From contig NZ_SAYT01000006.1 of the NCBI RefSeq assembly GCF_004296575.1, forward strand, positions 124,001 to 188,000: a DNA stretch of 64,000 nucleotides, read 5' to 3'. The stretch comes from Dyella amyloliquefaciens (GTDB lineage Bacteria; Pseudomonadota; Gammaproteobacteria; Xanthomonadales; Rhodanobacteraceae). The notes beneath the pieces were generated by a model. The model was not told the origin of the DNA. It was given only the letters and a program-made list of their open reading frames with translations, and did no database searches. The position numbers were made by a program, and so were the translations under genes. Shown here in pieces: positions 44,621 through 64,000 of the stretch (positions within the stretch are counted from its first letter, which is position 1; each line of letters opens with the position of its first letter).

Positions 44621-44637
44621 GGCGGCATCGGATCCGC

Positions 44638-46231: not shown

Positions 46232-46947
46232 TGACGTGTCTTCCATGTGTGCATGAGGGAGGCGGCTGGCCTGTGCAACGCACGCACGAAGTCGAGCGCG
46301 AACGGCCAGTCGGTGTGGTCTGCTTGCGTGGTGCGGCCACTGAGTTGCAGTTGCCAGTGCGACGCGGCTCCGGCATCGGGGCGCGAGGCGCCCACGCGCA
46401 AAGCCACTGCGTAGGTGAACGGCACATCGTCGATCCAGTCGGCGTAGGCCTCGGGTGGGCGCTCTTCCGTCATCACCACGATCACGGCGGGTGCACCCTG
46501 GTCGATGAGCGTGGCCGCTTCGAGCATGGCGTGCTCGAAGGTGTCGGCCTCTCCGGCGATCGCGGTGGATTCGCCACGCTGGCCGCGCAGAATCGACCAC
46601 TGCCCGGCGATCGCGTTATGCACTGAAAGTCCGAACTGCGTGGGTGACAACGGCTGGCGATCGGCAACGTCGCCAAGGATGGCGTACGTGCGCGTGGTCT
46701 CGCCGTGGCGTGAAGCGAATACCAGTGGCAGCTGTTCGTCGTCGCCGCACAGCGGCCATGCGACATGCAGCGCGATGCGTGCCATGCGGCTCAGGCGGCG
46801 ACGTTGCATCGCGGGCAGGAAACTGCAGTCCGGTTGCTCGCCCTGCTCGGCGGGCGCCCACGGCGCATTGGCCCAGGCCTGCCATGCTTCGGCACTTTCC
46901 AGGCCCGGCGCCCAGGCGCGCCAGTCGGCGATGCGCAGGTCGATCAT
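46207..46947 (-). CDS. Beta-ketoacyl synthase-like chain length factor (inactive)
   Basis: 246 residues from ATG 46947 (GGAG 8 bp upstream). It corresponds only to the N-terminal half of a ketosynthase (Ketoacyl-synt_2 type). FGLSVHNAIAGQWSILRGQR and the segment ESTAIAGEADTFEHAMLEAA align with the nucleophile region, but the position of the active Cys holds Ala. It therefore cannot condense and probably pairs with one of the neighbouring ketosynthases as a chain length factor. Overlaps the ketosynthase gene by 4 bp. Confidence 0.85.
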   Translation of the reverse strand: MIDLRIADWRAWAPGLESAEAWQAWANAPWAPAEQGEQPDCSFLPAMQRRRLSRMARIALHVAWPLCGDDEQLPLVFASRHGETTRTYAILGDVADRQPLSPTQFGLSVHNAIAGQWSILRGQRGESTAIAGEADTFEHAMLEAATLIDQGAPAVIVVMTEERPPEAYADWIDDVPFTYAVALRVGASRPDAGAASHWQLQLSGRTTQADHTDWPFALDFVRALHRPAASLMHTWKTRQWIWQRNP

Positions 46948-49423: not shown

Positions 49424-49458
49424 CGGTGCGCGCCCTGCGAGAGGAAGGTGTCGTTCAT
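49420..49458 (-). other. 12-codon mini reading frame bridging two operon genes
   Basis: ATG at 49458 overlaps the exporter stop as ATGA, and the frame (MNDTFLSQGAHR) ends in a TGA overlapping the ketosynthase ATG as ATGA. It thus tiles exactly the 31-bp gap. It has no good ribosome site of its own. It may be a coupling device or the decayed start of a lost gene; a functional peptide is not claimed. Confidence 0.35.
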
Positions 49459-51815
49459 GGTGATGGCTCGGAAGCGGGCAGACTGGCCGGCGCCAGCAGC
49501 GCGGTGATGCCAATGCCCAGCAACAGGGTGATACCGAAATGCTGCAGCGCTGGCATGGTGCTCAGGCCCAGCAGTCCGAAGGAAAGCAGCGCGGTAACGG
49601 CTGAAAGCAGCACGCTCGCATAGCTGGCACCTGGGAGGTGCCCGGTGTGCGGTTCGCCCTCCCGCATGAATACGGCGTAGTTGGCGCCCACGCCCAGCAC
49701 CAGCATCAGCGCCATCCAGTGGAACAGCGTAAGCGGTTGGCCGGCATAGCCGAGGGCGGCCACGGCAAGTCCGATACCGAGCAGCGGCGGTGCAAGCACG
49801 CGTGGCGCGGCGCGTCCGTAGCGCCAGGTGAAGACCGCGCCGACGAGCGCGAGTGCAGCCAACAGCCACAGGCTGGCGTACTGGCGGTAGCGCCCGAACA
49901 ACGCCGACACGCTGGCCGGTTTGTCGACGAGGCTTACGTCCTGCAAGCCGTCGGCGGCCGCGCGCAGCACGGCGACATCGTCCTGGCCTTGCGGCAGCAC
50001 GAGCGAGGCATAGCTATGGTCGCCCTGATTCATCCATAGGTAACGAAAGGGAATGGATAAGGGCATCGACAGCCACGCGTCGATCTTGAGCACGTCGCCA
50101 GGCCATCCCGCAAGGTAGGCGTTAGCCACGGACGCCTTGATGCCCGCCTGCACCAGGGTTGCTTCCATCGATGCACCCGATGCGAACCAGGGGGCCAGGG
50201 CGGCCTGGTTGGCGCGTTGCCGTTGTGCCGACGGCACCATCCCGGCCACCCCCGTCCAACCACCGAGTTGTCGCTGGTCCACCAGCGACTGCAGTCGCTG
50301 CTCGAGTGCTTCCTCCCGCTGCAGGGTCAGCTCGGGGGTGGTGCCGGTGACCAGATAGAACTGGCTGCCGTTGCCGAGACCGGTGATCGCGCGGATACGT
50401 GCCTCCTGCTGCGCCAGCGCAGCGGGCGGAGCGATCAGCAGATGGATGTCATCGTCATGGCCCACGCGCCACCAGCCAGGAGCCGCTATGGCCAGCAGCA
50501 ATGCCAGCACCGCCAGGCCAAGGCGTCCGTGCGCCAGCCGCATCACATGCTGTTGCCAGCCGCGTGCGAGCTTCACAAGCTGGGGCGACAGCGACCTGCG
50601 CGCGGGTGCTGCGGAGAGCACGGGCAACAGCCAGAAAACGCTGAGGCAGGACACCGTCATGCCCACCATGGCAAAGCAAGCCATCTGGCGCAGGGCTGGG
50701 AAGGGCACCAGGCCAAGCAGCGCATAGCCCAGCAGCGAAGTGCCCAGCGCCAGCAGCAGCGCCGGGCGAACCTGCTGCACGCCTCGCTGCGGTTGCCACG
50801 TCGCCCCCGCATTGGCGCGCGCACACAGGTACTGGATCGAATAGTCCACCGCTTCGCCAAGCAGGGCCGCGCCGAACACCAGGGTAAGCAGGTGGATCTG
50901 GCCGAACAGCAGCAGGGTTGCCACCAGCGCGCTGACGATACCCACCGCCGTGGACAGGAAAGCCACCAGCAATGGCCGTGGCGAGCGGAAGGTCCACAGC
51001 AGCAGCAGTGCGATGCCCAGCGTCGAGGTCAGGCCCACCACGTGCATGTCGCGCTCGGCGCCGGCACGCGCGGCGGCCGCGTAGAACACCGCGCCTGTCC
51101 GCAGCAGCTGCGAGCCGGGATGATCGCGACTTGCCTCGTGCCACGCGCGGTCGAGCGCACCGAGGGCGTCGCGTTGCACGCCATCGTCATACGAGGAGCC
51201 GCGCAGCGACGCGATCACCATCACATAGGTGAGACCGTCCTGGTGGGCGGTGAGCAGATCGTCCTCCGGCACCAGCGGTGAACGGCTCCACGGTTGCTGG
51301 TCCAGCCAGTGCTGCAGCCAGCCGAACGGATCGTCCTGCAAGCGGGTGCCGATGCCGGCGATGAACGGTTCGTTGAGGCGCCGGGCCAGTGCCTGGGCGG
51401 GATCATAGGCCGGCTGTGTCAGCGCGGTGCGGTCGGCGGCGCTGAGCAAGCTGAAGCGATAGGGCAGGTAAGGTGCAACGAACTGGTCGAGATCGAAGGG
51501 CGGCAGTTCCGCGGTTACCGCGTCGAACGCGTGCTCGCGGGATAATGCCTTGCCCAGTTCGCGAGCGGATGCCTTCGCCGCGTCGTCATCGGCGTTGGCG
51601 ACCACCAGCACCATGCGATCGCCATTGGCGTGCGCCAGTCGGTCCACCGCGGCCTCGGCAAGCGGGTGGCGCTCGGTGGCGGGCAACATCGCGAGCAGGT
51701 CGGTCTGGATGGGCACGGAGTGGTTGCCGAACAGCAGCCAGAGTCCCAACACGACCGTACTCAGGGCAAAGACCCCGAACAGTCCTGCTCGAAGATGCAG
51801 GCCACGCATGCTCAT
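49455..51815 (-). CDS. MMPL/RND-superfamily exporter of the aryl polyene pathway (ApeM-like)
   Basis: 786 residues from ATG 51815 (overlapping the LolA-like stop). Two repeats are visible, each with a periplasmic loop and about five to six membrane helices. The first block has LTSTLGIALLLLWTFRSPRP and FGAALLGEAVDYSIQYLCAR; the second has GIGLAVAALGYAGQPLTLFH, LVLGVGANYAVFM and ALLSFGLLGLSTMPAL. The central GEAVDYSIQYL and GVGANYAVFM motifs are the proton-relay-like helices of MMPL proteins. It probably moves the lipid-linked polyene out of the inner membrane toward the LolA-like carrier. Confidence 0.92.
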   Translation of the reverse strand: MSMRGLHLRAGLFGVFALSTVVLGLWLLFGNHSVPIQTDLLAMLPATERHPLAEAAVDRLAHANGDRMVLVVANADDDAAKASARELGKALSREHAFDAVTAELPPFDLDQFVAPYLPYRFSLLSAADRTALTQPAYDPAQALARRLNEPFIAGIGTRLQDDPFGWLQHWLDQQPWSRSPLVPEDDLLTAHQDGLTYVMVIASLRGSSYDDGVQRDALGALDRAWHEASRDHPGSQLLRTGAVFYAAAARAGAERDMHVVGLTSTLGIALLLLWTFRSPRPLLVAFLSTAVGIVSALVATLLLFGQIHLLTLVFGAALLGEAVDYSIQYLCARANAGATWQPQRGVQQVRPALLLALGTSLLGYALLGLVPFPALRQMACFAMVGMTVSCLSVFWLLPVLSAAPARRSLSPQLVKLARGWQQHVMRLAHGRLGLAVLALLLAIAAPGWWRVGHDDDIHLLIAPPAALAQQEARIRAITGLGNGSQFYLVTGTTPELTLQREEALEQRLQSLVDQRQLGGWTGVAGMVPSAQRQRANQAALAPWFASGASMEATLVQAGIKASVANAYLAGWPGDVLKIDAWLSMPLSIPFRYLWMNQGDHSYASLVLPQGQDDVAVLRAAADGLQDVSLVDKPASVSALFGRYRQYASLWLLAALALVGAVFTWRYGRAAPRVLAPPLLGIGLAVAALGYAGQPLTLFHWMALMLVLGVGANYAVFMREGEPHTGHLPGASYASVLLSAVTALLSFGLLGLSTMPALQHFGITLLLGIGITALLAPASLPASEPSP

Positions 51816-52420
51816 GGCACGCCGAGGGCACGTGCTTCGAGTGCGCTCAAGGTGCCGGCATCGCGCGTACCGCTGAAACGGATCTGCGTGCGCTCGCCGC
51901 CTTGCATCTCTACGTCGATGCCTTGCAAGAACTCGTTGCCGCTCAGCTCGATGGCACTGAGCACGCGAGCCATGCGCTGCTGTCGCGGCGTGAAGCGCAG
52001 GCTCCACTGGGAGGTGCTGCCGCGCGCTTCCACATCGAACTGCCGCAGCGCCTCTTCCGGCTGGCCTGCCAGCATGGACTGCAGCATTTGCGATACCTGG
52101 GCCACCCCGCGATCACCGTTGCGAACTACCTGCAAATGCCCATGGTCGTCGATGCGGGCAGTGCGCGTGCCGGTCAGCGCCAGCGTCTCGCGATAGGGCT
52201 GGGTGACCTGCCACAACATGCCATTGCCACTGACGAACAGCAGCTGTCCCTGGCTCAGCTGCGGCTGGGCCAGCGCCGGATTCTCACGGCTCTGCGTGAA
52301 GTCCGCGCGCACGCGTGGATGGGCGGCCAGCTCGGCGAGCACCTGCCGGAGCAGGTCGGTCTCCTGCGCGTGCAGGCCGGAGGCAAGCACGGAGAGCACG
52401 GCGACGATCAGCCAGCGCAT
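51812..52420 (-). CDS. LolA-like periplasmic carrier protein (ApeL-like)
   Basis: 202 residues from ATG 52420 (AGGAAGG just upstream). Signal peptide WLIVAVLSVLASGLHA. The mature protein matches the LolA-related domain of aryl polyene clusters: VRADFTQSRENPALAQPQLS, GQLLFVSGNGMLWQVTQPYR near 58-77 and IELSGNEFLQGIDVEMQGG. LolA carries lipoproteins between membranes; this relative likely carries the polyene lipid to the outer membrane. Overlaps the exporter start by 4 bp and the glycosyltransferase end by 13 bp. Confidence 0.88.
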   Translation of the reverse strand: MRWLIVAVLSVLASGLHAQETDLLRQVLAELAAHPRVRADFTQSRENPALAQPQLSQGQLLFVSGNGMLWQVTQPYRETLALTGTRTARIDDHGHLQVVRNGDRGVAQVSQMLQSMLAGQPEEALRQFDVEARGSTSQWSLRFTPRQQRMARVLSAIELSGNEFLQGIDVEMQGGERTQIRFSGTRDAGTLSALEARALGVP

Positions 52421-53196
52421 GCGACCTTCCTGCGGCGAAGTCGGCGCCACAGCAGGCGCGGCGCGCGCGGCAACATGCCGATCAGCAGGCGCGTGTGCAT
52501 CGCCGAGATGCGCACGTTGTCGCCCCACATGCGGAAATGGGAGAGGCCATTCTCCGGATAGATCACTCGTGTGGGTAGATTGCGCACGGGCACGCCGCGC
52601 CACACCATCCGCACCGCGGCCTCGGTATCGAAGTCCATGCGCGCGGGAAACGGCTTGCGCGCCAGTTCGGCACAGGTCGGCGCCAGTGGGTACAGGCGAA
52701 AGCCACACATGGAGTCATGGATCTCCATCGACAGCGTCTCGATCCATACGAAGAAGTGAGTGATGTAGCGACCATAGAGGCGACCGCGTGGCACGCTGTC
52801 GTCATAGATCGGGCGACCGCAAACCATCGCGTGCGGATGGGTGGCAGCTTCGGCGAGGAAGCGCGGCACGTCGTTGATATCGTGCTGGCCGTCGGCGTCG
52901 ATCTGCAGCGCATGGGTGTACCCAAGCTCTCGCGCCGCCAACATACCCGCGCTGAGCGCGCGGCCCTTGCCCTGGTTGTGTGGCAGGCGCAGCAGTTGTA
53001 CCTGCGATTGTTCGTGCGCGATGGCATCGAGCACGGCGCGCGTCGCATCGTTGCTGCCATCATCCACGATCACCACCGGCAGGCCATGCGCGCGCAAGCC
53101 ATCCACGGTGCGGGCGATCGTGTCCTTGTGGTTGTAGATCGGGATCAGCGCGCAAGGCGCGAAGACGCCGCTCTCCCTCGTGGCGCTCGGCATCAT
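52408..53196 (-). CDS. Family 2 glycosyltransferase
   Basis: 262 residues. The GT-A fold of GT2 is clear: CALIPIYNHKDTIARTVDGL, VVIVDDGSNDATRAVL, the DXD-like ALQIDADGQHDINDVPRFLA near 93-112 and SMCGFRLYPL. The C-terminal basic end (LLWRRLRRRKVACAG) may touch the membrane. In several aryl polyene clusters a GT2 domain is fused to an acyltransferase (ApeJ); here it stands alone. It may add a sugar to the lipid anchor. It follows the first ACP gene by 16 bp. Confidence 0.88.
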   Translation of the reverse strand: MMPSATRESGVFAPCALIPIYNHKDTIARTVDGLRAHGLPVVIVDDGSNDATRAVLDAIAHEQSQVQLLRLPHNQGKGRALSAGMLAARELGYTHALQIDADGQHDINDVPRFLAEAATHPHAMVCGRPIYDDSVPRGRLYGRYITHFFVWIETLSMEIHDSMCGFRLYPLAPTCAELARKPFPARMDFDTEAAVRMVWRGVPVRNLPTRVIYPENGLSHFRMWGDNVRISAMHTRLLIGMLPRAPRLLWRRLRRRKVACAG

Positions 53197-53212
53197 GCCG
53201 GTGGCCGCCGCG

Positions 53213-53482
53213 TCAGCGGAGGAGCAGCGTCTGTACGGTCGCGACCACGTCGCCTACCGTGCGCACGCTTTTGAAGTCTTCAGGCTTGATGCGCATCCCG
53301 GTCATGTCCTGCACCTGGATGGCGAGGTCGACGGCATCAATGCTGTCCAGTTCGAGGTCGGTGAACAGGTGCGCGTCGGGCTTGACCCGCGTCGGCTCGA
53401 TCTCGAAGGTCTCGTGCAGCATGTCCTTCAGGCGGGAGAGGATGTCCTCGTCGCTGATGCCGCTGGCCAAGATGGTGCTCAT
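53213..53482 (-). CDS. Acyl carrier protein, first gene of the aryl polyene operon
   Basis: 89 residues from ATG 53482, preceded by GGATCAGGGA. The phosphopantetheine site is FTDLELDSIDAVDLAIQV, Ser near residue 44. It is acidic and all-helical like other ACPs. It is the promoter-proximal gene of a minus-strand operon that runs to at least 39508 with overlaps or short gaps throughout. Two ACPs per cluster is the rule in aryl polyene loci; division of labour between them is unknown. Confidence 0.9.
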   Translation of the reverse strand: MSTILASGISDEDILSRLKDMLHETFEIEPTRVKPDAHLFTDLELDSIDAVDLAIQVQDMTGMRIKPEDFKSVRTVGDVVATVQTLLLR

Positions 53483-53639
53483 AAATCCCTGATCCTGCTC
53501 GTTGCACAGGTCGTTGCGAATCGCATGTTCTTGCGATACAAGGACCTTGGAACTTACCGTGGCCAGTCCACTGTGCGTAAAGGCACAGGAACTCACGCCG
53601 GCTGCACGCCGCGAGGCCGTGGCTGGAGCGTTCCCTTGA

Positions 53640-53740
53640 TTGTGATGCGCCGGCAAAGCCGGCCCCCTTGGTGCCACCAATTGCTTTTGTAGGCAATGCC
53701 TTACAGTGGGCAAAAGGTGAGGGTCGCAGTGTAACAGAAG
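53640..53740 (-). promoter_or_regulatory. Candidate promoter and operator of the aryl polyene operon
   Basis: On the minus strand TGTTACACT (53728-53736) fits an extended -10 box, about 245 bp before the first ACP start. Just downstream lies the perfect dyad TTGGTG-C-CACCAA (53668-53680), then the hairpin GCCGGC-AAA-GCCGGC (53649-53663). The dyad is well placed for a repressor and the hairpin for leader-level control. The remaining 53483-53800 stretch contains no gene. All assignments here are by inspection only. Confidence 0.4.
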
Positions 53741-53800
53741 CCCCCGTCGGCAACGAGCCGACTTTTCGGTACGTAGGGAGGCACCGTGGCTTATTGCGGA

Positions 53801-54974: not shown

Positions 54975-55087
54975 TGGAACGCAAACTCCACGATTGGCGG
55001 TGCCGGGGGATGGCGCCGCAGGAATGGAGGCGGGGTTCGATCCAGTGCGGCCCCGCCGGGGTACTAACAAAAGCCTTAAAGTCAAAA

Positions 55088-55106
55088 CCCCGACCAGTGG
55101 TCGGGG
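55088..55106. promoter_or_regulatory. Perfect dyad upstream of the amino acid dehydrogenase
   Basis: CCCCGACCA-G-TGGTCGGGG, 9-bp arms around one base, about 115 bp upstream of the dehydrogenase ATG. Position and symmetry fit an operator; a leader hairpin is the alternative. The flanks (AAGCCTTAAAG, TTTAGTTCGC) are AT-rich and promoter-like. The rest of the 332-bp gap holds no gene. Confidence 0.4.
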
Positions 55107-55218
55107 CGATGAATTTAGTTCGCTAGTTTAGTACGTCCCCGGCGGAACGGTTGCTGCGACGCCGCAAGTCGCTGGCGTACGGGGAAAAATTCCCATCGGC
55201 ACCGCCGGCCCGGCGATG

Positions 55219-55306: not shown

Positions 55307-57268
55307 TCAGCTGCTGCCAGTCGGGTCGGATTCGTTCTGCCAGTAGACGGCGTAACGCTCCCCGTGCACCTGGTTGAGCGGCACGACCGCAAGCTTGCCG
55401 TCGTGCGTCTGCGCTTCGAAACGCAGTTCCTTCGCGGACTGCACGCGCAACCAGGACATCTCCTCCGGCTTGTCCATCACCACGCGCGGTGACGGCCAGG
55501 GCTTGGGCTCCGGCTTGGGGGCCGCGTCATAGCCGCAATACTGCATGTCGTGGGTCAGGCCCTTGTCGCCCAGTCGCGCGGCGAGCACCAGCGGACCGTA
55601 CAGCGCGGCGTGCAGGCCATCGTCGCCGGGCAGGGCCTCGTGGGTGAGGCGCATGGGCAGGTCCATCTCGATGCGATCGCCATCGCGCCACTCGCGCTTG
55701 ATCGTCAGGTAGCTGCCCGGCGAGGCAAATACATCCAACGCTGTACCGTTGAGGCGCACGCGTGCGCCCGGTGCTATCCAGGATGGCACGCGGAGATTCA
55801 GTGCGAACGTGGATGGCGCGGCCAGGGACAGCTGGAACCGCGTCAACGGCTCGCGGGGGAACGCGGTTTCCTGGCGGAAGCGCAGCTTCTGCTCGGGCCA
55901 GTTGAGTTCGGACGGGATGAACAGGTTGACGTAGAGATCGTTGCCTTCGCGGAAATAGATGCTGTCGTTGAAACGGGCAAACTCTTCCGCGCCGCTGCCC
56001 GTGCAGCACCAGAAGGAATCGGTAGGCGTGTTGTAGAACTTCGCCGCACCGGGCTGCAGCGGGTAGTAGTACAGCTTCATGCCGTCGCCGTCCTGGGTAC
56101 CCAGGCGCGCGTTGTAGAGCGTGCGCTCGTAGTAGTCGAACGCGCGAGGGTCGCCATTCCACGCATATATGTGGCGCGTCAGCTTCATCAGGTTGTACGC
56201 CACGCAGCACTCGGCGCTGTACAGGCCCAGCTGGTCCTTGAGATCGCCGGGTGCGGTTTTCCAGAACTCGTCGTTACTCGAGCCGCCGGTGGCGTAGTTG
56301 CGGTTGCGAGTGACGGTTTCCCAGAAGAATTCGGCGATGTGCCGGTAGCGCGGCTCACCGGTAAGTTCGTAGCGCCGCGCCGCGCCGATCACCTTGGGGA
56401 TCTGCGTGTTGCTGTGCAGGCCTTGCAGTTCATCGCGATGGGCGGCGAGCGGGTCGAACAGCGAAACCTGGTCGAAGCGGTGCGCGGCCCCCTGGTAGCG
56501 ATCGTTGCCGGTGATCGCATACAGCTCGAGCATGGCGTCGTTCATCCCGCCGTACTCGGTCTTCAGAATGTGTGCCATCTCCGCGTCGGAAAAACCGTTG
56601 AGCCAGCGTACCGTCCAGTTGCCGATGCCGATGGCGACCTGCAGCGCCTGCTTGTTGCCGGTGTGCACGTACATGTCGAGCATGCCGGCAAGGATCTTGT
56701 GGATGGTGTAGAACGGCGCCCACACTTTCTGGCCGCTGCTCAGCCGGTCGAAGAAACTCTCCGGGAACGCACTCAGGTAACCATTCGGTTGCTGGCAGGC
56801 GGCGAGTGCCGCCACCAGTTCGTCGCCGCGCTGCTTGAGCGTGGTATCGCCCACCGTGGCGTAGGCCAGCGCAGCAGCGGAAAGATAGTGGCCGCCGCTG
56901 AAGTGCCCGCGCAGCTCGCAGTCGGGCTTCTCCCATCCACCCAGCGGTTTCGCGCTGGAATGGATTCCCGCCTGCACGCGAAAGCTATGCGCCAGTCGAT
57001 CCACCGGCAGGCTGTGCAGGTAGTTCTGGTTGATGGCCGCCGCACGGGAGAAGTCGCTATCCAGGAGGCGGACCTGGCCAAGCCCAAAGGGCTGCATGCG
57101 ATACACGGGCTGCTCGCGTATGGCGTTGGCCGCCGCCGCATCGGCCGGCGTGAGCGTATCGGCGACGTCGGGTGCCAGGCTGAATGCACGAGGCACCACC
57201 GCCAGTGATGCCAGCGCTGCGCCGGCCTGCTTGAGAAATCGCCTGCGATGTTCACGATCGTCTTGCAT
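55307..57268 (-). CDS. GH127 beta-L-arabinofuranosidase with Tat-like signal
   Basis: 653 residues from ATG 57268; ATG 57295 lacks a ribosome site. The N-terminus DREHRRRFLKQAGAALASLA is a twin-arginine-type signal, so the folded enzyme may be exported by Tat. The catalytic (alpha/alpha)6 domain has GGHYLSAAALAY, TEYGGMNDAML and LHSNTQIPKVIGAARRYELT. The Zn/nucleophile segments GLYSAECCVAYNLMKLTRHI and SFWCCTGSGAEEFARF match the Cys/Glu ligand pattern of HypBA1, where a Zn-bound Cys is the nucleophile. C-terminal beta domains follow. The family removes beta-L-Araf from hydroxyproline-linked arabinans. Beside a GH27 gene on the same strand. Confidence 0.9.
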   Translation of the reverse strand: MQDDREHRRRFLKQAGAALASLAVVPRAFSLAPDVADTLTPADAAAANAIREQPVYRMQPFGLGQVRLLDSDFSRAAAINQNYLHSLPVDRLAHSFRVQAGIHSSAKPLGGWEKPDCELRGHFSGGHYLSAAALAYATVGDTTLKQRGDELVAALAACQQPNGYLSAFPESFFDRLSSGQKVWAPFYTIHKILAGMLDMYVHTGNKQALQVAIGIGNWTVRWLNGFSDAEMAHILKTEYGGMNDAMLELYAITGNDRYQGAAHRFDQVSLFDPLAAHRDELQGLHSNTQIPKVIGAARRYELTGEPRYRHIAEFFWETVTRNRNYATGGSSNDEFWKTAPGDLKDQLGLYSAECCVAYNLMKLTRHIYAWNGDPRAFDYYERTLYNARLGTQDGDGMKLYYYPLQPGAAKFYNTPTDSFWCCTGSGAEEFARFNDSIYFREGNDLYVNLFIPSELNWPEQKLRFRQETAFPREPLTRFQLSLAAPSTFALNLRVPSWIAPGARVRLNGTALDVFASPGSYLTIKREWRDGDRIEMDLPMRLTHEALPGDDGLHAALYGPLVLAARLGDKGLTHDMQYCGYDAAPKPEPKPWPSPRVVMDKPEEMSWLRVQSAKELRFEAQTHDGKLAVVPLNQVHGERYAVYWQNESDPTGSS

Positions 57269-57431
57269 GACTTTCCCCGTGCCATGGCTGGTCATCGCGG
57301 ATGGATGACTTTGTTGGAGCGTTGCTTGCGTACGATTCCATCGTGGCTTCAGGCGGCCACATCGTCTTGTGTCATTCGAAGGGACGATGTGCGGAAACCC
57401 GCATAGCCGCGCAAGTCCAGATGCTGAGACC

Positions 57432-58637
57432 TCAGTGCGGTGTATCCAGTCGGACCAGCAACACATCGTGGCGGGCCAACGCAATGGCCTGCTTATCCGA
57501 AAGCGAAATGGGCGTGCCACTCCACAGGTCCTTGCCTTGCTGGCTGCCATGCAGTCCGAGCTTCGCCAGGTTCAGGCGGAATGGATGGGTATCGGCGTAA
57601 CGGGCGCTGCCCACGTTGAAAATGGCGATCGCCATCGCGCCGTTCTGGAGCGGGCGCGTCCACACCTCCACCTCACCCTCGGCATAGGCCCGGGTCGCCT
57701 GCTTGCCCAACGGGTCCTGGTCGATGGCGATGACGTCGCGATTGCCCAGGATGTTCTTGACCTCTACCGGCATGTGCGCAAGGTCATTGCCGGCGAGCAG
57801 CGGTGCCGCCAGCATGGCCCACCAGCTGAAGTGCGCCCGATTCTCGGCAGCGGTCAGCTTGCCGTTGCCGACCTCAAGCATGTCCGGGTCGTTCCAGTGG
57901 CCGGGGCCGGCATAGCTGGCCAACCCGGCCTGCTGCGAGGCGATCGCATAGATGCGATCCCATTCGGGCGTGATGTCGCCGGTGGTTCGCCAGAGGTTGC
58001 CGTCGACCTTGGCGCCGGGAGCCCACTCCCACACCGCATCCCAGCCGTACTGGCACAGGGAATAGACGATCGGCCGGCCCGTGGCCGCGAGGGCGGCGTG
58101 CATGCGTTCGTAGGCGTCGACCATCAGGCGCATCTGTTGCGCGGGATCGTTGGGCGCCTTGGCCTTCATCTGGTCTTCGATGAAGCTGCACAAGTCGTAC
58201 TTGAGATAGTCCACGCCCCACTCGGCGTAGGTCTTTGCATCTTGCGCCTCGTGTCCCAGCGATCCGGCGAAGCCGGCACAGGTCTTGGGGCCCGGCGAGG
58301 TGTAGATGCCGAGTTTCAGGCCTTTCGAATGGACATAGTCGGCCAGCGCCTTCATGTCGGGGAAGCGCTCATTGGCGTGGATCACACCCTTGGCGTCCCG
58401 TTGGCCCTGCCAGCCATCGTCGATGTTGACGTACACATAGCCGGCGTCGCGCATGCCCGTGCTCACCAGGGCATCGGCCGCTGCACGTACATCGGCATCG
58501 GTGACTTTCTCGGCGAAGAAATTCCAGCTGTTCCAGCCCATGGGCGGCGTGGCCGCCACGGGAGCGGCGAGTGCGTTGCCGCACGCCGAACCCAGCACCA
58601 TGGTCAACGCGAACAGAACACTACGGGACAATCGCAT
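57432..58637 (-). CDS. GH27 alpha-galactosidase, secreted
   Basis: 401 residues. Signal peptide VLFALTMVLGSACGNALA. The GH27 barrel shows TPPMGWNSWNFFAEKVTDAD, YVYVNIDDGWQ, the nucleophile motif VDYLKYDLC (Asp148), the acid/base motif NLWRTTGDI (Asp221) and GPGHWNDPDMLEVGN. A short C-terminal beta domain follows. The length fits simple GH27 enzymes without binding modules. It hydrolyses terminal alpha-galactose in the periplasm or outside. Same strand as GH127 (163-bp gap) and the permease (35-bp gap upstream), so co-regulation is likely. Confidence 0.93.
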   Translation of the reverse strand: MRLSRSVLFALTMVLGSACGNALAAPVAATPPMGWNSWNFFAEKVTDADVRAAADALVSTGMRDAGYVYVNIDDGWQGQRDAKGVIHANERFPDMKALADYVHSKGLKLGIYTSPGPKTCAGFAGSLGHEAQDAKTYAEWGVDYLKYDLCSFIEDQMKAKAPNDPAQQMRLMVDAYERMHAALAATGRPIVYSLCQYGWDAVWEWAPGAKVDGNLWRTTGDITPEWDRIYAIASQQAGLASYAGPGHWNDPDMLEVGNGKLTAAENRAHFSWWAMLAAPLLAGNDLAHMPVEVKNILGNRDVIAIDQDPLGKQATRAYAEGEVEVWTRPLQNGAMAIAIFNVGSARYADTHPFRLNLAKLGLHGSQQGKDLWSGTPISLSDKQAIALARHDVLLVRLDTPH

Positions 58638-58672
58638 GGTTCACCTCGTTGTCAGGAGAGCGGTGCGTAACG

Positions 58673-60082
58673 TCAAGCCGCGTTTGCGGTTGCGCGACTA
58701 TGGTGCCGGCCGTAGCTGAGATACAGCACGCAACCCAGCAGCAGCCAGATGGCAAAGCGCACATACGTGATGATGGGCAGGCCCCAGATCAGCCAGCACG
58801 AGAAGCCTACGCCGATGATCGGGACCAGTGGCACCAGCGGCGTGCGGAACGGGCGATGGAGCTCCGGCTGGCGCCAGCGCAACACGGCCACGGCCGTGCA
58901 GATCACGATGAAGGCGCCGAGCACGCCGATGTTCACCAGCTTGGCCAGCTCGTCCAGCGGAAACAGGCCGGCGGCGACGGTGGTCACGCCACCCAGCAGC
59001 AGGGTGGAACGATGCGGCGTGCGCCAGCGCGGATGCACGGCGGCAAACCACGACGGCAGCAGGCCATCGCGACCGAGGCTGAAGCCGATGCGCGCCCCGG
59101 CCATCAGGTTGGCGAAGATCACGCTGGTGATGCCACACACGGACGCCAGAGAGATCACCACCATCGTCCACGGCATGCCGATGCGGATGAAGGCATTCGC
59201 CACCGGCGCGGCGTTGTCGAGCGTGGTATAGGGCACGATGCCGGTGAGCACGAGGCAGATGGCGATGTAGAGCACCATCGCAATGCCCAGCGACAACAGC
59301 ACGGCACGTGGCAGGTCGCGCTGCGGATTGCGCGATTCCTCTGCCGCGGTGGTGAGCATGTCGTAACCGAACACGGCGAAGAACACGACGGCTGCACCCG
59401 TGACCACGCCATGCATGCCGAACGGCATGAACGGATGCCAGCGTTCGGGCTTCACGTAGGCAGCGCCGGCGATCACGATCAGCGCGGCGCCGGCGATCTT
59501 GATCGACACGATCAGCGTGTTGAAGCGCGCCCCCCATTCCATGCGCACGGCGAGCAGGGCGGTGATGACCACGGAGATGGCGATGGCAGGCAGGTTCACC
59601 ACGCAGCCCGGGGCACTGCCCCAGGCGCCTTGTGCCCATACCGGCAGGGGTATGCCGGCGGCATTGAGCAGTGCCTGCATGTACCCCGACCAGCCCACCG
59701 CGACGACGGCGGCAATCAGTGCGTACTCGAGCAGGAGATCCCAGCCGATGATCCAGCCGGCGAACTCGCCCAGCACGGCATAGCCGTAGGTGTACGCGCT
59801 GCCCGAGACGGGAATGAGTCCGGCGAACTCGGCGTAACACAGGGCCGCGGCGGCGCTGGCAATGCCAGCGATGATAAAGGACAACAGCACGGCCGGCCCG
59901 GCCTGCGTGGCCGCCACGGTGCCGGTGAGTACGAAGATGCCCACGCCGATGATGCCGCCAAGGCCGATCGCCGTCAGTTGCCACAGGCCCAGCACGCGAC
60001 GCAGGCCGCTGCCGCCCCTCGCGGCCTCGCCCTGCAATGCCTCCACCGGCTTGCGCCGAAGCATGTCGTTGATCAGGCCCAT
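58673..60082 (-). CDS. APC-family amino acid permease
   Basis: 469 residues, about 12 hydrophobic helices. Typical start RVLGLWQLTAIGLGGIIGVG with the glycine-rich first helix of amino acid/polyamine transporters, then SFIIAGIASAAAALCYAEFA and YTYGYAVLGEFAGWIIGWDL. FFAVFGYDMLTTAAEESRNP is the conserved helix VI-VII region of cationic-amino-acid-type (CAT/YfnA) carriers. It probably imports amino acids with a cation. It is next to glycosidases and peptidases that would release amino acids, including possibly hydroxyproline, from a glycoprotein; substrate is inferred only. Confidence 0.9.
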   Translation of the reverse strand: MGLINDMLRRKPVEALQGEAARGGSGLRRVLGLWQLTAIGLGGIIGVGIFVLTGTVAATQAGPAVLLSFIIAGIASAAAALCYAEFAGLIPVSGSAYTYGYAVLGEFAGWIIGWDLLLEYALIAAVVAVGWSGYMQALLNAAGIPLPVWAQGAWGSAPGCVVNLPAIAISVVITALLAVRMEWGARFNTLIVSIKIAGAALIVIAGAAYVKPERWHPFMPFGMHGVVTGAAVVFFAVFGYDMLTTAAEESRNPQRDLPRAVLLSLGIAMVLYIAICLVLTGIVPYTTLDNAAPVANAFIRIGMPWTMVVISLASVCGITSVIFANLMAGARIGFSLGRDGLLPSWFAAVHPRWRTPHRSTLLLGGVTTVAAGLFPLDELAKLVNIGVLGAFIVICTAVAVLRWRQPELHRPFRTPLVPLVPIIGVGFSCWLIWGLPIITYVRFAIWLLLGCVLYLSYGRHHSRATANAA

Positions 60083-60144
60083 CCGCTACTCCCCGTGTCG
60101 CGTGTTGTGTTTATTGTCTGAACTACGTCAGTCCCCTCCACGTT

Positions 60145-60221
60145 GTCATCCCGGCGGAAGCCGGGATCCAGTGACTTGGCCTCCGCGAGAGGCGCTGGAT
60201 TCCGGCTTCCGCCGGAATGAC
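60145..60221. repeat. GTCATCCCGG-type inverted repeat (77 bp)
   Basis: Two outward 27-bp copies: GTCATCCCGGCGGAAGCC at 60145 and its inverted near-copy ending GGAATGAC at 60221. Each half has its own CCGG(C)..GCCGG hairpin. This is, from general knowledge, a widely scattered intergenic palindrome of proteobacterial genomes. It sits in the 202-bp gap between the DUF885 stop and the permease start. Confidence 0.75.
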
Positions 60222-60284
60222 GATGTGGTGCAAGGGTGGGTCAAGTCGTCCTTGGCGTATCGCTCCGTTGGTTAGGTATTGCCG

Positions 60285-62039
60285 TTACTTCGCGGCGTAC
60301 GGCGACTTGCCGCCATCCGCGATGAACTTGTCCACTTGCTGCTGCAGCACCGGCAGCGGCACCGAGCCGAGCGAGAGTACGGTGTCGTGGAAGGCGCGCA
60401 GGTCGAAATGCTCGCCCAGTGCCTTCTCCGCCTTTGCGCGCGCATCGACGATAGCAAGCTCGCCCAGGTAGTACGACAGTGCCTGGCCCGGCCACGCAAT
60501 GTAGCGGTCGACCTCCGTCTCAATCTCGTGCTCGCTCAGCGCGGTGTTGTCGCGCATGAACGCCTGCGCCTGCTCGCGCGTCCAGCCCTTGTGGTGGATG
60601 CCGGTGTCGACTACCAGACGGGCGGCGCGCCACATCTGGTAACTCAGGTAGCCGAAGCGGTCGTACGGCGTGTCGTACATGTCCATCTCCACGCCCAGGC
60701 GCTCGGAATACAGCGCCCAGCCTTCGCCATAGGCGGAGATGTAGGTGTAACGACGGAAGTCCGGCAGGCCTTCATGCTCGGCCGCCAGCGGCATCTGGAA
60801 GGCGTGGCCTGGTGCCGATTCGTGCAGCGTCAATGCGGTCAGCGAGTACAGCGGGCGCGAGGGCAGGTCATAGGTGTTGACCAGGTAGACGCCCGGGCCG
60901 CCGCGGCCACCGGTATAGAACGGCGCAAGGTCCGCGGGCACCGGCTCGATGGCGAAGCGCTGCCGCGGCAGGCGGCCGATGTAGTTGCCGACCTTGCCGT
61001 CCACGCGCTTGGCGATCCACGCGGCATCCTTCAACAGCTCGTCGGCGGTCTTGGGGTAGAACTTCGGATCGGTGCGCAGGTAGTGCAGGAATTCGGGGAA
61101 ACTGCCCTTGAAGCCACTGTCCCGGATGGTTTCGTCCATCTCCTTGCGGATGCGCGCCACTTCCTTCAGACCCAGCTCGTGGATCGCGTCGGGCGTCATG
61201 TCGAGCGTGGTGTACTCGCGGATCTGCGACTGATAGAACGCCTTGCCGCCCGGCAGCGATTCGGCGGCGAGCGTGGTGCGCGCCTGCTTCATGTAGGTGT
61301 TGCGCATGAAGTCGAGCAGCTTGGCGTAGGCGGGAATCACCGATTGCTGGATCGCCTCGCGCCCCTGCACACGCAACTGCGCCTGCACGTCGGCGGGAAT
61401 CGTGGCCGGCATCTTGCGGAACGGGGTGTAGAACAGGTTGTCGTCGCCCTTGGCGTTCACCACATCGGCGATCGACTGGTCGCGTCCGGTCAGCGTCACC
61501 CGCGGCACGCTGAAGCCCCGGGCCAGGCCGGCCTGCATGTTGGCCGTCTGCTCGCCGAAATAGCGCGGTAAGTCCTGCAGCTGGTGGATGTAGTGGCGGT
61601 AATCCTCGGCGGTGCGCAGCGTGCGGCGCGCGGTGAAGCCCAGGTTGGTCCAGAACGCGGTATCGCTGTTGAACGGCATCTCCCAGGTATGGAAATGCTG
61701 GTCGGCCAGCAGGGTCTCGATCTGGTTGCGATAAACCGCGTAATTGGCCGGGTCGTCGCCTTTCAGCTGGTTCGGCGAGATCGCGTCGAGCTGCTTGAGC
61801 ACATCGGCCCAGTACTTCTCGCGCGTCGCCTGCGTGGCGGCGTCGACCTTCGGCAGGTGGTCGGCGAGCTTGCTGTCGTTGCTGTCCTCGTCATCCGCGC
61901 CCTTGAACTGTGCTTGGCGCCAGGCCCACTCCTTGGTGTAGATCTCATGGAAGCGGGCGGTGGCATCGTCGTCGGCACGCGTCGGCAACGAGGTGGCGAG
62001 GCAGAGCGTGCAGGCAAGGGCGAGGAGGAGAGGCTTCAT
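60285..62039 (-). CDS. DUF885 family putative zinc metallopeptidase, secreted
   Basis: 584 residues from ATG 62039; an upstream ATG at 62093 is inside a REP element. Signal peptide LLLALACTLCLATSLPTRA. The mature chain is largely helical, and the zinc motif is LTLHESAPGHAFQMPLAAE (HExxxGH) near residues 408-418. WALYSERLGVEMDMYDTPYD supplies a further Glu ligand candidate and the tail has AWPGQALSYYLGELAI, a DUF885 signature. The family contains dipeptide/oligopeptide-hydrolysing carboxypeptidase-like enzymes. Placement beside an Xaa-Pro peptidase and a permease fits peptide use. Confidence 0.88.
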   Translation of the reverse strand: MKPLLLALACTLCLATSLPTRADDDATARFHEIYTKEWAWRQAQFKGADDEDSNDSKLADHLPKVDAATQATREKYWADVLKQLDAISPNQLKGDDPANYAVYRNQIETLLADQHFHTWEMPFNSDTAFWTNLGFTARRTLRTAEDYRHYIHQLQDLPRYFGEQTANMQAGLARGFSVPRVTLTGRDQSIADVVNAKGDDNLFYTPFRKMPATIPADVQAQLRVQGREAIQQSVIPAYAKLLDFMRNTYMKQARTTLAAESLPGGKAFYQSQIREYTTLDMTPDAIHELGLKEVARIRKEMDETIRDSGFKGSFPEFLHYLRTDPKFYPKTADELLKDAAWIAKRVDGKVGNYIGRLPRQRFAIEPVPADLAPFYTGGRGGPGVYLVNTYDLPSRPLYSLTALTLHESAPGHAFQMPLAAEHEGLPDFRRYTYISAYGEGWALYSERLGVEMDMYDTPYDRFGYLSYQMWRAARLVVDTGIHHKGWTREQAQAFMRDNTALSEHEIETEVDRYIAWPGQALSYYLGELAIVDARAKAEKALGEHFDLRAFHDTVLSLGSVPLPVLQQQVDKFIADGGKSPYAAK

Positions 62040-62063
62040 GTCGCTGTCCTTCGTGGGGATTTC

Positions 62064-62146
62064 TGTAGGAGCGCACCCAGTGCGCGACCGCAACGTTTCG
62101 GCGTCTCCGCTTCGTCGGGTTTTCGCACACTGGGTGCGCTCCTACA
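62064..62146. repeat. REP-like inverted repeat, copy 3 (83 bp)
   Basis: Arms as at 2489 and 35364, starting TGTAGGAGCGCACC at 62064; the second arm ends CTCCTACA at 62146 with one mismatch (TTCGCACAC). It begins 14 bp after the Xaa-Pro peptidase stop (minus strand) and ends 25 bp before the DUF885 ATG. Confidence 0.85.
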
Positions 62147-62160
62147 GGGATAGGTAGGCA

Positions 62161-63369
62161 TCACGCAAACGGCTGATCGATCGCGGGCGACGGCGGCGTG
62201 AACCAGGCGGCGCCGTCCTCGGTGACGTAGAAGTGGTCTTCCAGTCGTACGCCGAAACGGTCGGGCACCACGATCATCGGCTCGTTGCTGGCGCACATGC
62301 CGGGGTCGAGCAGCGTCTGGTTGCCGCGTACGAGGTAAGGCGTCTCGTGGATGTTCATGCCGCAGCCGTGACCGGTGCGATGAGGAATGCCAGGCAGCCG
62401 ATAGTCGGGGCCGAGCCCGGCCTTCTCGACCACCTTGCGTGCCGCCGCATCCACCGCTTCGCAGGTCACGCCCGGACGCACGGCATCGAATGCAGCCTGC
62501 TGCGCGGCCTGCTCGAGTTCCCAGATGCGCGCCTGATCGGCGCTGGGCTGGCCGAAGATGTAGGTGCGCGTGATGTCGGAGTGGTACCCCTGCACGGTGC
62601 AGCCCGTATCGATCAGTACGAGCTCGCCGGGCTGCAGGTACTGCTCACCTGGCACGCCGTGCGGATACGCCGTGGCCTGTCCGAACTGCACGATGCAGAA
62701 AGTGGAGCCATTGTCTGCGCCCATCGCGCGATGGGCCTCATCGATGAAGCGCACGAGTTCGCCACGGCTGATGCCTTCGCGCATGAGACCGGCAGCGAGA
62801 CGATGCACCTGCAGCGTCATCGCGGTGGCCTGCTTCATCAGCGCAAGTTCGGCGGACGACTTGCAGATACGGCAGCCGTCGATGATCGCGCTCGCTTCCT
62901 TCAGTGGCTTGCCACCGAGCACCGTGCGCAGACGTTCGGCGACCACATAGGGCGCCGCCGGATCGAGCGCGAGGCTCCCGGCGCCGCGTTCGCGCAGCGC
63001 ATCAGCCACCAGCTGCTGTGGATCTTCGTGCTCCTCCCATAGGCGTACTTCGGCGGGAATCAGCAGTACGGCTTCCAGCGAGCCCATTTCGAATGCAGGG
63101 CAGACCACGATGGGAGCGCCGCGCTGCGTCACCAGCAAGCCGACCAGGCGTTCGCTCGCACCCCAGGCGACGCCGCTGAAATAGCGCAGCGAGGTGCCGG
63201 CGGTAACCAGCAGTGCATCCACGCCTTGTTCGCGCATCAGGCGACGCGCCTGGTCGAGGCGCTGCTGGTATTCGTCGGCACCGATGGCCGCTGCTGGTGC
63301 AGACCACGGGGCGAGCGAAGCGCGCGCCGTGACGATATCGAGGCCGCCAATCGGGCTGGCTGTGCTCAT
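62161..63369 (-). CDS. M24-family Xaa-Pro aminopeptidase/dipeptidase
   Basis: 402 residues from ATG 63369, overlapping the upstream dehydrogenase stop (ATGA). The N-terminal creatinase-like domain (LMREQGVDALLVTAGTSLRY, YFSGVAWGASER) precedes the pita-bread domain, with metal ligands in VLIDTGCTVQGYHSDITRTY (two Asp), IPHRTGHGCGMNIHETPYL (His), CASNEPMIVVPD (Glu) and RLEDHFYVTEDG (Glu). It cleaves the bond before proline or hydroxyproline in short peptides. No signal peptide, so cytoplasmic. Coupled to a ketoglutarate-semialdehyde-type dehydrogenase gene, which points to proline/hydroxyproline use. Confidence 0.9.
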   Translation of the reverse strand: MSTASPIGGLDIVTARASLAPWSAPAAAIGADEYQQRLDQARRLMREQGVDALLVTAGTSLRYFSGVAWGASERLVGLLVTQRGAPIVVCPAFEMGSLEAVLLIPAEVRLWEEHEDPQQLVADALRERGAGSLALDPAAPYVVAERLRTVLGGKPLKEASAIIDGCRICKSSAELALMKQATAMTLQVHRLAAGLMREGISRGELVRFIDEAHRAMGADNGSTFCIVQFGQATAYPHGVPGEQYLQPGELVLIDTGCTVQGYHSDITRTYIFGQPSADQARIWELEQAAQQAAFDAVRPGVTCEAVDAAARKVVEKAGLGPDYRLPGIPHRTGHGCGMNIHETPYLVRGNQTLLDPGMCASNEPMIVVPDRFGVRLEDHFYVTEDGAAWFTPPSPAIDQPFA

Positions 63370-64000
63370 GCGCCGGCTCCGTGCCCGAGATCGTCTGCCG
63401 ACCACACGCCGTCGATGCAGCGGGCGAGGCCTCCCGGATTGCGATCGCGCAATTCGGAGGGCAGCTGATGCTCGGGTACGTTGTCGTAGCAATGCAGGGC
63501 GGTGAAGCGAGTGATCGCGGCCGGCATGCCCACGGCCGTGAAGCCCGGATGGCCGGTGCTGGGATACGGGCCGCCGTGGTTCATGGCCGGGCTCACTGCC
63601 ACGCCAGTCGGCATGCGATTGCCGATCAGGCGGCCAACACGCGGACGCAATGCATGAGCGACCTTTGCCCAGGTGTCGTCGTCGCTACCGTCGTTGGCGG
63701 TGTAGAGGGTGCCGGTGAGGTTGCCTTCGAACGCCGACGCGACCTGCGCCATCTGCTCGACATCCTTCACGCGCACCAGCAGGCTGACCGGGCCGAACGC
63801 CTCGGTCTGCAACGCCTTCGGCTCGCGCAGGAAGTGTTCCGCGTCGACGCTGAGCAGGGTGGGCGCGTAGCGATAGCCCGGCGAGCCGGCCTGGCCGCCG
63901 GCCAGCATTTCCGCACCCGCCTTGCGCAGCGTGGCGACGCTGCTCTGCAGGTGATCGAGCACGCCGCGCGAGAACAGCACGCCGGGTGCAGCTGCGGCGA
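63366..64000 (-). CDS. Aldehyde dehydrogenase (2-oxoglutarate semialdehyde type), C-terminal part
   Basis: About 211 residues; the frame is open to the window edge, so the start and the catalytic Cys lie outside. Visible aldehyde dehydrogenase features are REPKALQTEAFGPVSLLVRV (the family's E-x-FGP segment), SAFEGNLTGTLYTAN and a C-terminal NRMPTGVAVSPAMNHGGPYP, where the last six residues are characteristic of the NADP+ 2,5-dioxovalerate (ketoglutarate semialdehyde) dehydrogenases. These oxidise 2-oxoglutarate semialdehyde, the last step of hydroxyproline, arabinose and glucarate pathways. The overlap with the M24 peptidase gene favours hydroxyproline. Confidence 0.88.
   Translation of the reverse strand, partial: AAAAPGVLFSRGVLDHLQSSVATLRKAGAEMLAGGQAGSPGYRYAPTLLSVDAEHFLREPKALQTEAFGPVSLLVRVKDVEQMAQVASAFEGNLTGTLYTANDGSDDDTWAKVAHALRPRVGRLIGNRMPTGVAVSPAMNHGGPYPSTGHPGFTAVGMPAAITRFTALHCYDNVPEHQLPSELRDRNPGGLARCIDGVWSADDLGHGAGA

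Follow-up and report, generated by a model that had tools for sequence, protein, structure and literature searches.

A candidate locus for the use of arabinosylated hydroxyproline peptides in Dyella amyloliquefaciens and its relatives

Here we describe a run of six genes at one end of a 64,000-nucleotide stretch of the Dyella amyloliquefaciens genome (the window), which is probably the distal half of a single locus for the utilization of peptides with arabinosylated hydroxyproline (Hyp); extensin is the best candidate for the substrate. The basis of this reading is gene content, gene order, sequence motifs, and the linkage of a glycosidase to Hyp genes within the family. The component kinds are each known, and no publication that we found describes the full gene set as one locus; among the literature matches listed, in which subscription papers and preprints are thinly covered, none describes a GH146 or GH127 enzyme and Hyp catabolism in one locus. 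Plant walls contain Hyp as part of glycoproteins. Many soil bacteria burn free Hyp, and its release from arabinosylated protein is, as far as we found, little described. If the reading is true, the locus links the breakdown of Hyp glycoproteins to the use of Hyp in the soil genera Dyella, Luteibacter, and Rhodanobacter, and it offers a candidate for a new family of glycosidases.

All six genes named in a first-pass annotation are present, on the minus strand and arranged as it stated, each with a Pfam match above cut-off. From the window edge inward they encode the C-terminal part of a 2-oxoglutarate-semialdehyde-type dehydrogenase (63366..64000, running past the edge; PF00171), an M24 peptidase of the prolidase or Xaa-Pro type (62161..63369; PF00557 and PF01321), a DUF885 protein (60285..62039; PF05960, 522.7 bits against a cut-off of 32.4), an APC-family amino acid permease (58673..60082; PF13520), an alpha-galactosidase-like GH27 glycosidase (57432..58637; PF16499 and PF17801), and a GH146-like beta-L-arabinofuranosidase (55307..57268; PF07944 and PF20736). 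The ATGA overlap it reported is also present, with positions 63366-63369 shared between the start of the M24 gene and the stop of the dehydrogenase gene. A terminator-like hairpin found by scanning 3′ of the GH146-like gene (55087..55107, minus strand) possibly marks the end of the unit, but it is a weak end signal, because the region holds 3 terminator-like sites where shuffles lead one to expect 4.8.

The run occupies a single strand, yet it is not one tight operon throughout. Between the M24 and DUF885 genes lies a REP-like palindromic repeat of about 85 bp (62063..62148, assigned to neither strand), recognized by its tens of further copies elsewhere in the genome and also occupying the same gap in two relatives (L040, L041), while the gap between the DUF885 and permease genes holds a sequence that matches its own reverse complement (60138..60228, likewise without strand). 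Because both gaps hold palindromes, a single transcript is not assured, and the same palindromes lend something to the notion that unrelated genes merely share a strand here. We consider such chance neighbourhood very improbable: it is disfavoured by conserved linkage, gene order being kept across six genus groups of the family, and by pairwise protein distances of the GH146-like enzyme that correlate with those of DUF885 or the Hyp enzymes (r 0.68-0.82, Mantel p 0.001), a correlation that shared ancestry alone would also give.

The first-pass annotation had predicted that an epimerase, an oxidase, and a DHDPS-like deaminase for Hyp would follow beyond position 64000, and had named glucarate or arabinose-oxidation neighbours as the case that would speak against it. 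The predicted genes stand directly past 64000 on the same strand, and the neighbours are Hyp genes instead: a 4-Hyp epimerase, a DAO-type oxidase, a 2Fe-2S protein, a second FAD protein, the DHDPS-like deaminase, and the semialdehyde dehydrogenase, with a divergent PAS-AraC regulator adjoining. The contiguous domains (PF01266, Fer2_4, Pyr_redox_2, PF00701, PF00171) are assignments at family level, and at that level a D-Hyp oxidising enzyme, a DHDPS-like deaminase, and a semialdehyde dehydrogenase stand in line as in a Hyp cluster. The epimerase scores above the cut-off of one NCBIfam equivalog, PRK13970 (452.4 against 442), and below that of a second model, HdxProlEpimProt (415.6 against 450), and carries both cysteine motifs, MCGHGT and PCGTGT; the DHDPS-like protein carries YNNP and VKESS, and for all four motifs we assume their usual roles. 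Beyond the window edge the dehydrogenase is complete at 531 residues (L010:367-1962). It reaches no NCBIfam equivalog cut-off among the best 25 matches listed, so its substrate is assigned from the adjoining Hyp genes, and neither the two FAD proteins nor the DHDPS-like protein reach one among the matches listed. A part for the dehydrogenase in glucarate or arabinose oxidation was rejected because Hyp genes surround it. The published 4-Hyp catabolic clusters, in the portions of the papers available to us, share the epimerase, D-Hyp oxidation, the DHDPS-like deaminase, and the semialdehyde dehydrogenase (hyp genes and HypR regulons, PMC5343134; neighbourhood networks of proline racemases, PMC4113996); they differ in having no glycosidase members in those portions and in being governed, according to the part of PMC5343134 available, by a GntR-type HypR where the window locus has a PAS-AraC protein.

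The label GH127, under which the arabinosidase had been annotated, had to be given up. In a ranking of PDB sequences the PF07944 protein is nearer to GH146 structures, first among them 5opj (E 2.8e-104), which we take to be BT0349, than to the GH127 enzyme HypBA1 (3wkw, E 3.1e-08), and on that ranking a HypBA1-type GH127 identity was rejected. The assignment to GH146 follows from the PDB ranking together with the Zn-Cys3-Glu and acid/base residues. Five residues, E332, E351, C353, C419, and C420, are invariant across 22 aligned rows, and by this alignment, with the zinc ligands as given in the available part of PMC10850190, the putative enzyme holds its catalytic and zinc residues. It also bears a Tat-type signal, recognized by eye. 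The same source, as far as available, reports two GH146 enzymes, XeHypBA1 and Bll4HypBA1, as active on Araf-beta-Hyp, and one characterised member that acts on AGP and arabinan. With BT0349 and Bll3HypBA1 the window enzyme shares the family, the Zn-Cys3-Glu site, and the Trp of a WxPxY motif, which we infer from the alignment to be W162 of BT0349; these two differ in being described on RG-I or arabinan oligosaccharides and on beta-1,3-arabinofuranosides, respectively (PMC10850190, in part). Against a role on Ara-Hyp stands the fact that the nearest solved chain, 5opj/BT0349, is the one described for pectic arabinan, and identity to an XeHypBA1-like protein is only 37%.

The GH27 protein has a Sec-type signal (by eye) and the motifs YLKYD, WNDPDM, and IDDGW, which presumably include the catalytic Asp residues. 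Its nearest solved chains are the alpha-galactosidases 6f4c (305 bits) and 1uas (296 bits); the beta-L-arabinopyranosidase Abp scores 102 bits and chain 3a21, which we take to be a beta-L-arabinopyranosidase, 196 bits. Domain, Asp motifs, and nearest solved chains agree on an alpha-galactosidase-like enzyme, which may have beta-L-arabinopyranosidase activity as well. Only 7 of the 24 fetched loci with a glycosidase contain a GH27 gene, while 72 of 197 family genomes have a GH27 match somewhere, and the enzyme's presumed action on Ser-galactose is the weakest step of the proposal. In a less likely alternative, the same unit would serve another plant substrate than structural extensin (AGPs, arabinosylated signalling peptides, or Hyp-rich lectins), the GH146-like enzyme trimming any beta-arabinofuranose and the GH27 enzyme taking off alpha-galactose or beta-L-arabinopyranose caps. 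GH146 activity on AGP, the existence of GH27 beta-L-arabinopyranosidases (PMC4598101, in the part available), and the 196 bits of 3a21 fit such a unit, as does the lack of GH43 among the locus genes scanned, the genome's four GH43 matches all being on other contigs; a beta-galactosidase or galactanase, however, is also missing among the locus genes scanned, and the GH27 protein is nearest to alpha-galactosidases. With no GH43 there and GH121 outside the scan, the locus has nothing known to cut Ara3- or Ara4-Hyp back to Ara-Hyp.

The DUF885 protein carries an HESAPGH motif and, as judged by eye, a Sec-type signal; it is a predicted periplasmic peptidase, the peptidase function being attributed to its family; NCBIfam at E 0.001 gave no name for it or for the GH27 protein, and among the literature matches listed the word DUF885 was met in one slime-mould genome paper. 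The M24 peptidase carries DTG, DITR, GHG, HETP, and LED, which we take to be metal ligands, reaches no NCBIfam cut-off, and is predicted to be cytosolic since no export signal is visible by eye. For the permease the nearest NCBIfam model is BcaP, at 556.6 bits under the cut-off of 690. In the proposed utilization locus, the Tat-exported GH146-like enzyme would remove beta-L-arabinofuranose from Hyp in the periplasm, where the GH27 enzyme would take off alpha-galactose and the DUF885 protein would shorten the peptide. The permease would then bring in Hyp or small Hyp peptides, and the M24 peptidase would split Xaa-Hyp or Xaa-Pro in the cytosol. Hyp would be converted to D-Hyp by the epimerase and oxidized by the FAD and 2Fe-2S proteins, after which the DHDPS-like enzyme would deaminate the product and 2-oxoglutarate semialdehyde would become 2-oxoglutarate, with the divergent PAS-AraC protein probably sensing the substrate.

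Much of the case lies in the family, sampled as 197 genomes in which GH146-like and epimerase matches were counted at E 1e-100. A GH146-like match is present in 24 of them, 23 being close (at least 61% identity), and 22 of these 23 close homologues lie in or beside a Hyp locus. Close GH146 genes occur in 22 of 69 genomes with an epimerase against 1 of 128 without (Fisher p 1.3e-10, phylogeny ignored). The one close homologue whose genome lacks an epimerase match (G093) stands among sugar genes, and in another genome (G006) an epimerase and the GH146-like gene lie about 7 kb apart on opposite strands, the other pathway genes not being seen in the fetched stretch. The association of the glycosidase with the Hyp locus, held across several genera, supports one unit as far as genome comparison goes. 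Among 36 Hyp loci fetched in the family, the window counted, 24 carry one or more glycosidases and 12 carry none; M24 was matched in only 30. In three congeners (L064-L066) the glycosidase is absent and the permease abuts the next gene, and therefore the genes of the sugar module come and go together. The 12 loci that have DUF885 and no glycosidase would suit a linkage through ecology only, with the Hyp and peptidase genes serving collagen-like or general proline-rich peptides and the glycosidases serving pectic arabinan and raffinose sugars, as would GH146-like genes elsewhere in the order that keep company with apparent arabinose genes (L203, L204). We think this unlikely, given the 22 of 23 close homologues in or beside a Hyp locus and the joint appearance and loss across the 36 loci of the sugar genes and a TonB receptor, which share one end of the locus.

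That receptor accompanies 21 of the 24 glycosidase-bearing Hyp loci and none of the 12 others in the fetched stretches; the window locus has no TonB-dependent receptor match, though one was expected from its relatives. In another family of the order (L198), a 791-residue GH146 protein that matches XeHypBA1 in length and in its 43-residue signal, and that we take to be the Xanthomonas enzyme, adjoins a related receptor, 62% identical to the one in a Dyella Hyp locus. This identity is not far above paralogue level, because the best receptor match in the window genome itself, elsewhere in the genome, is 56%. The HypBA1/HypBA2/HypAA systems of X. euvesicatoria and B. longum likewise use a GH146 enzyme to free Hyp-linked arabinose, with GH121 and GH43 partners; in the available text of PMC6085000 they accomplish sugar removal only, with no Hyp catabolism joined, whereas in the window locus the glycosidase shares one run with peptidases and the Hyp pathway, and there is no GH43 among the genes scanned. 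The proposal made for Latescibacteria (PMC4454575, in the part available) also assigns GH127 to extensin arabinose with peptidases present, and differs as a genome-level inventory with no linked locus or Hyp pathway.

Outside the family the link between glycosidase and Hyp genes is weak. A GH146-like match is found in 55 of 348 genomes of the order, and none of the 11 stretches scanned around these other genes holds Hyp core genes; in Acidobacteriota, Hyp genes are nearby in only 4 of 63 GH146 loci. Arabinose genes seem, from N-terminal letters read by eye, to be the neighbours in L203 and L204.

In relatives the sugar module is often joined by an unclassified Tat-exported protein of about 785 residues, for which the window genome has no match. 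Apart from a weak Tat signal, the protein family matches nothing in Pfam; in NCBIfam it has only Tat-type leader matches, and PDB sequences gave no hit at E 1. A structure model of low confidence (mean pLDDT 57.6, pTM 0.60) gave a Foldseek ranking of AoRhaA, HypBA1, ExoMA2, Bll3HypBA1, GH78, BT_1003, and GH116, the top 11 hits having E 1e-05 to 1e-03, a query-length TM-score of about 0.24-0.30, and an rmsd of 8.5-18 Å. As these superpositions are weak, the ranking suggests the six-hairpin class and nothing narrower, and the protein may be a new glycosidase. More tentatively, and with less likelihood than its opposite, the relatives would carry a new six-hairpin glycosidase family that performs the missing step on beta-arabino-oligosaccharide-Hyp in a modular locus dedicated to whole Hyp-rich glycoproteins, their sugars and peptide as well as the Hyp. 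That this family is tied to Hyp genes everywhere was rejected, Acidobacteriota showing otherwise. It is present in 21 of 250 genomes of the Acidobacteriota class, and 22 stretches were scanned: L235, L236, and 20 others that represent 19 of the 21 genomes, with two stretches for G588 and none for G446 or G697. At least two Hyp genes occur in 2 of the 22 (L235, L240) and a GH127/GH146-type match is nearby in 6; L128, which comes from G446, adds one stretch with both Hyp genes and a GH127/GH146-type match.

The 19 kb that follow the window edge at base 64000 were taken and searched with Pfam and NCBIfam, and they carry the hydroxyproline (Hyp) genes whose presence there the first-pass annotation had proposed as a check, with a set running from epimerase to dehydrogenase. 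Going outward from the window, all on one strand and abutting or overlapping one another, come genes for an aldehyde dehydrogenase (531 aa), a DHDPS-like protein (301 aa), a Pyr_redox_2 FAD protein (428 aa), a 2Fe-2S protein (81 aa), a DAO oxidase (370 aa) and, last, a member of the proline racemase family taken as the 4-hydroxyproline epimerase; a divergent gene for a PAS and AraC regulator follows. Of two NCBIfam models for that epimerase, the protein passes PRK13970 (452.4 against a cut-off of 442) and lies below the cut-off of HdxProlEpimProt (415.6 against 450). Among the NCBIfam matches listed, the dehydrogenase and FAD proteins meet no equivalog cut-off, and their substrates therefore rest on gene context. 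About 3 kb past the regulator, a large fused methylmalonyl-CoA-mutase-type protein (B12-binding, MeaB, mutase) is encoded at L010:10162-13629, L010 being the stretch beyond the edge.

The source genome comprises 4.83 Mb in 17 contigs, the window being bases 124001-188000 of contig 14; among the sequences searched, its nearest named relatives belong to Dyella. Pfam places all six genes of the candidate locus (minus strand, 55307-64000) where they had been claimed, and the proposed ATGA coupling holds, with the first codon of M24 overlapping the stop codon of the dehydrogenase gene at 63366-63369. The permease and GH27 genes are 35 bases apart, while the M24-DUF885 gap (about 120 bases) and the DUF885-permease gap (about 200 bases) each contain a palindrome. 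The palindrome in the M24-DUF885 gap, a REP-like repeat of about 85 bp at 62063-62148, has tens of copies across the genome, some in small arrays, and a terminator-like hairpin lies 3' of the glycosidase gene at 55107-55087, such sites being no commoner than in shuffled sequences.

That glycosidase, a PF07944 protein first labelled GH127, is GH146-like instead: its nearest solved chain is 5opj at 353 bits, followed by the bifidobacterial chains 8k7y and 8k7x, whereas HypBA1 (GH127) reaches only about 36 bits. We take 5opj to be BT0349, a GH146 structure; 8k7y is the GH146 enzyme Bll3HypBA1. Excerpts of PMC10850190 name BT0349 as a GH146 structure, give the Zn-Glu-Cys3 residues of Bll3HypBA1 as E723, C725, C804 and C805, and report Araf-beta-Hyp as the main substrate hydrolysed by XeHypBA1 (GH146) and activity of Bll4HypBA1 (GH146) on Araf-Hyp of hydroxyproline-rich glycoprotein backbones. 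Given these two activities, GH146 suits the chemistry originally proposed, in which sugars are removed from extensin before peptide cutting, import and Hyp oxidation, at least as well as GH127. By alignment, E351, C353, C419 and C420 of the window protein match the metal site, and they are invariant across 22 aligned GH146-like rows, as is E332, the presumed acid/base glutamate. The protein is 90% identical to its counterpart in Dyella sp. EPa41, 89% to that of G153, a genome of the same genus, and 37% to a 791-aa GH146 in L198, a stretch from another family of the order. The latter enzyme shares with XeHypBA1 its reported length and 43-residue signal, from which we infer that L198 carries the XeHypBA1 orthologue. 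At L198:11703-16484 its gene adjoins that of a TonB receptor 62% identical to the receptor of a Dyella Hyp locus; paralogues of this receptor in the window genome reach 56% identity. The GH27 protein has alpha-galactosidase features; its proposed action on serine-linked galactose is less likely than not, and it may alternatively be a beta-L-arabinopyranosidase.

Across 197 Rhodanobacteraceae genomes, matches were found in 24 for the GH146-like protein (E 1e-100; one of them, in G053, of a distant, 39% type), 72 for GH27 (E 1e-60), 165 for DUF885 (E 1e-150) and 69 for the epimerase (E 1e-100). Close GH146 homologues stand in or beside a Hyp locus in 22 of 23 cases, including G006, where the epimerase gene is about 7 kb away on the opposite strand and the remaining pathway was not seen within the fetched stretch, and G187, where the epimerase gene is on a second contig and the other Hyp genes stand beside the GH146-like gene. 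In the exception, G093, a genome without an epimerase match, the neighbours of the GH146-like gene are those for an IlvD-type dehydratase, a pair of GH27-like proteins and a sugar transporter, an arrangement seen in stretches L055 and L096. Counted by genome, GH146 occurs in 22 of 69 with the epimerase and 1 of 128 without (Fisher p 1.3e-10, uncorrected for shared ancestry), and its distances correlate with those of DUF885 or the Hyp enzymes (r 0.68-0.82, similarly uncorrected). In one genome (G113, stretch L060) the epimerase and GH146 genes each match as two pieces in different frames, through either sequencing error or decay.

Forty stretches were fetched from family genomes; excluding L055, L062 and L077-L079, which are not Hyp loci, and adding the window locus gives 36. 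They were picked by a Hyp-type DUF885 or GH146-like gene and represent only part of the 69 genomes with an epimerase match, so that the presence of DUF885 in 36/36 is partly by choice. At least one glycosidase is found in 24 of them (22 GH146-like, 15 with a Tat-exported protein of about 785 aa, 7 GH27, window counted), and 12 have none of the three. A matching TonB-dependent receptor stands at the locus end in 21 of the 24 glycosidase-bearing loci (all except the window, L041 and L058) and, within the fetched stretches, in 0 of the 12 others. M24 is matched in 30/36 (not in L051, L052, L057, L058, L061 or L073), and a different APC protein takes the permease's place in 12/36, which suggests that import is kept rather than one particular permease. 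In three congeneric loci (L064, L065, L066) a Glu/Leu/Phe/Val-type dehydrogenase gene follows the permease by at most about 330 bases, and the same gene stands after the GH146-like gene in the window; a sugar module has therefore been inserted or lost there. A short GH146 remnant is visible at L067:2646-2891 (48% over about 82 residues), in a locus that still carries genes for the 785-aa protein and the TonB receptor.

The 785-aa protein occurs in 15/197 family genomes (E 1e-30), in all 15 inside Hyp loci, near the permease/GH146 end (L088:7339-9708, L086:7377-9734, L087:7426-9792 and others); the window genome has no match at that threshold. Beyond a twin-arginine type leader it matched nothing in Pfam or NCBIfam, nor did any PDB chain match it by sequence. 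The AlphaFold2 model, built on 11 sequences, is weak (pLDDT 57.6, pTM 0.60), and the structures that resemble it most are six-hairpin glycosidases, HypBA1 and Bll3HypBA1 among them, at TM-scores of only about 0.24-0.30. The protein is placed as a candidate new glycosidase family, perhaps acting on beta-arabino-oligosaccharides, a guess that its fold class and genomic neighbours prompt. In Acidobacteriota the family is present in 21/250 genomes; Hyp genes are seldom close by there (2 of 22 stretches, plus L128), and 6 of the 22 have a GH127/GH146-type match.

Outside the family, a wider contig scan for GH146-like genes returned, among the best 80 of 101 loci, 16 from Rhodanobacteraceae, 1 from Nevskia and 63 from Acidobacteriota. 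Fifteen of the 16 lie in a Hyp locus, largely in the genomes already sampled, several being recognised solely by the dehydrogenase/M24/DUF885 end in the available flank; the single Nevskia locus has no Hyp locus. At least 4 of the 63 Acidobacteriota loci (L104, L118, L128, L142) show Hyp core genes in the flank, at least two in each, a lower bound because many contigs are short; even so, the association in this group is clearly no more than occasional. L142 also has a GH27 gene, placed between its Hyp genes and its GH146-like gene. Within the order, 55/348 genomes have a GH146-like match, and around its other GH146-like types 0 of 11 scanned stretches held Hyp core genes.

Taken from its sequence, the locus probably serves the use of arabinosylated Hyp glycopeptides, with the case for extensin as main natural substrate about evenly balanced. 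Its peptidases find a parallel in a Xanthomonas cluster, which, in an excerpt of PMC6085000, has a broken prolyl-oligopeptidase gene alongside. In a literature search covering few subscription papers or preprints, we found no paper joining GH146/GH127-type glycosidases and Hyp catabolism in one locus. Elsewhere in the window, a minus-strand run at 40600-53800 encodes three ketosynthases, a thioesterase, a lipid-A-type acyltransferase, an MMPL exporter, a family 2 glycosyltransferase and, by eye, an acyl carrier protein; to us it looks like an aryl-polyene-type pigment cluster.
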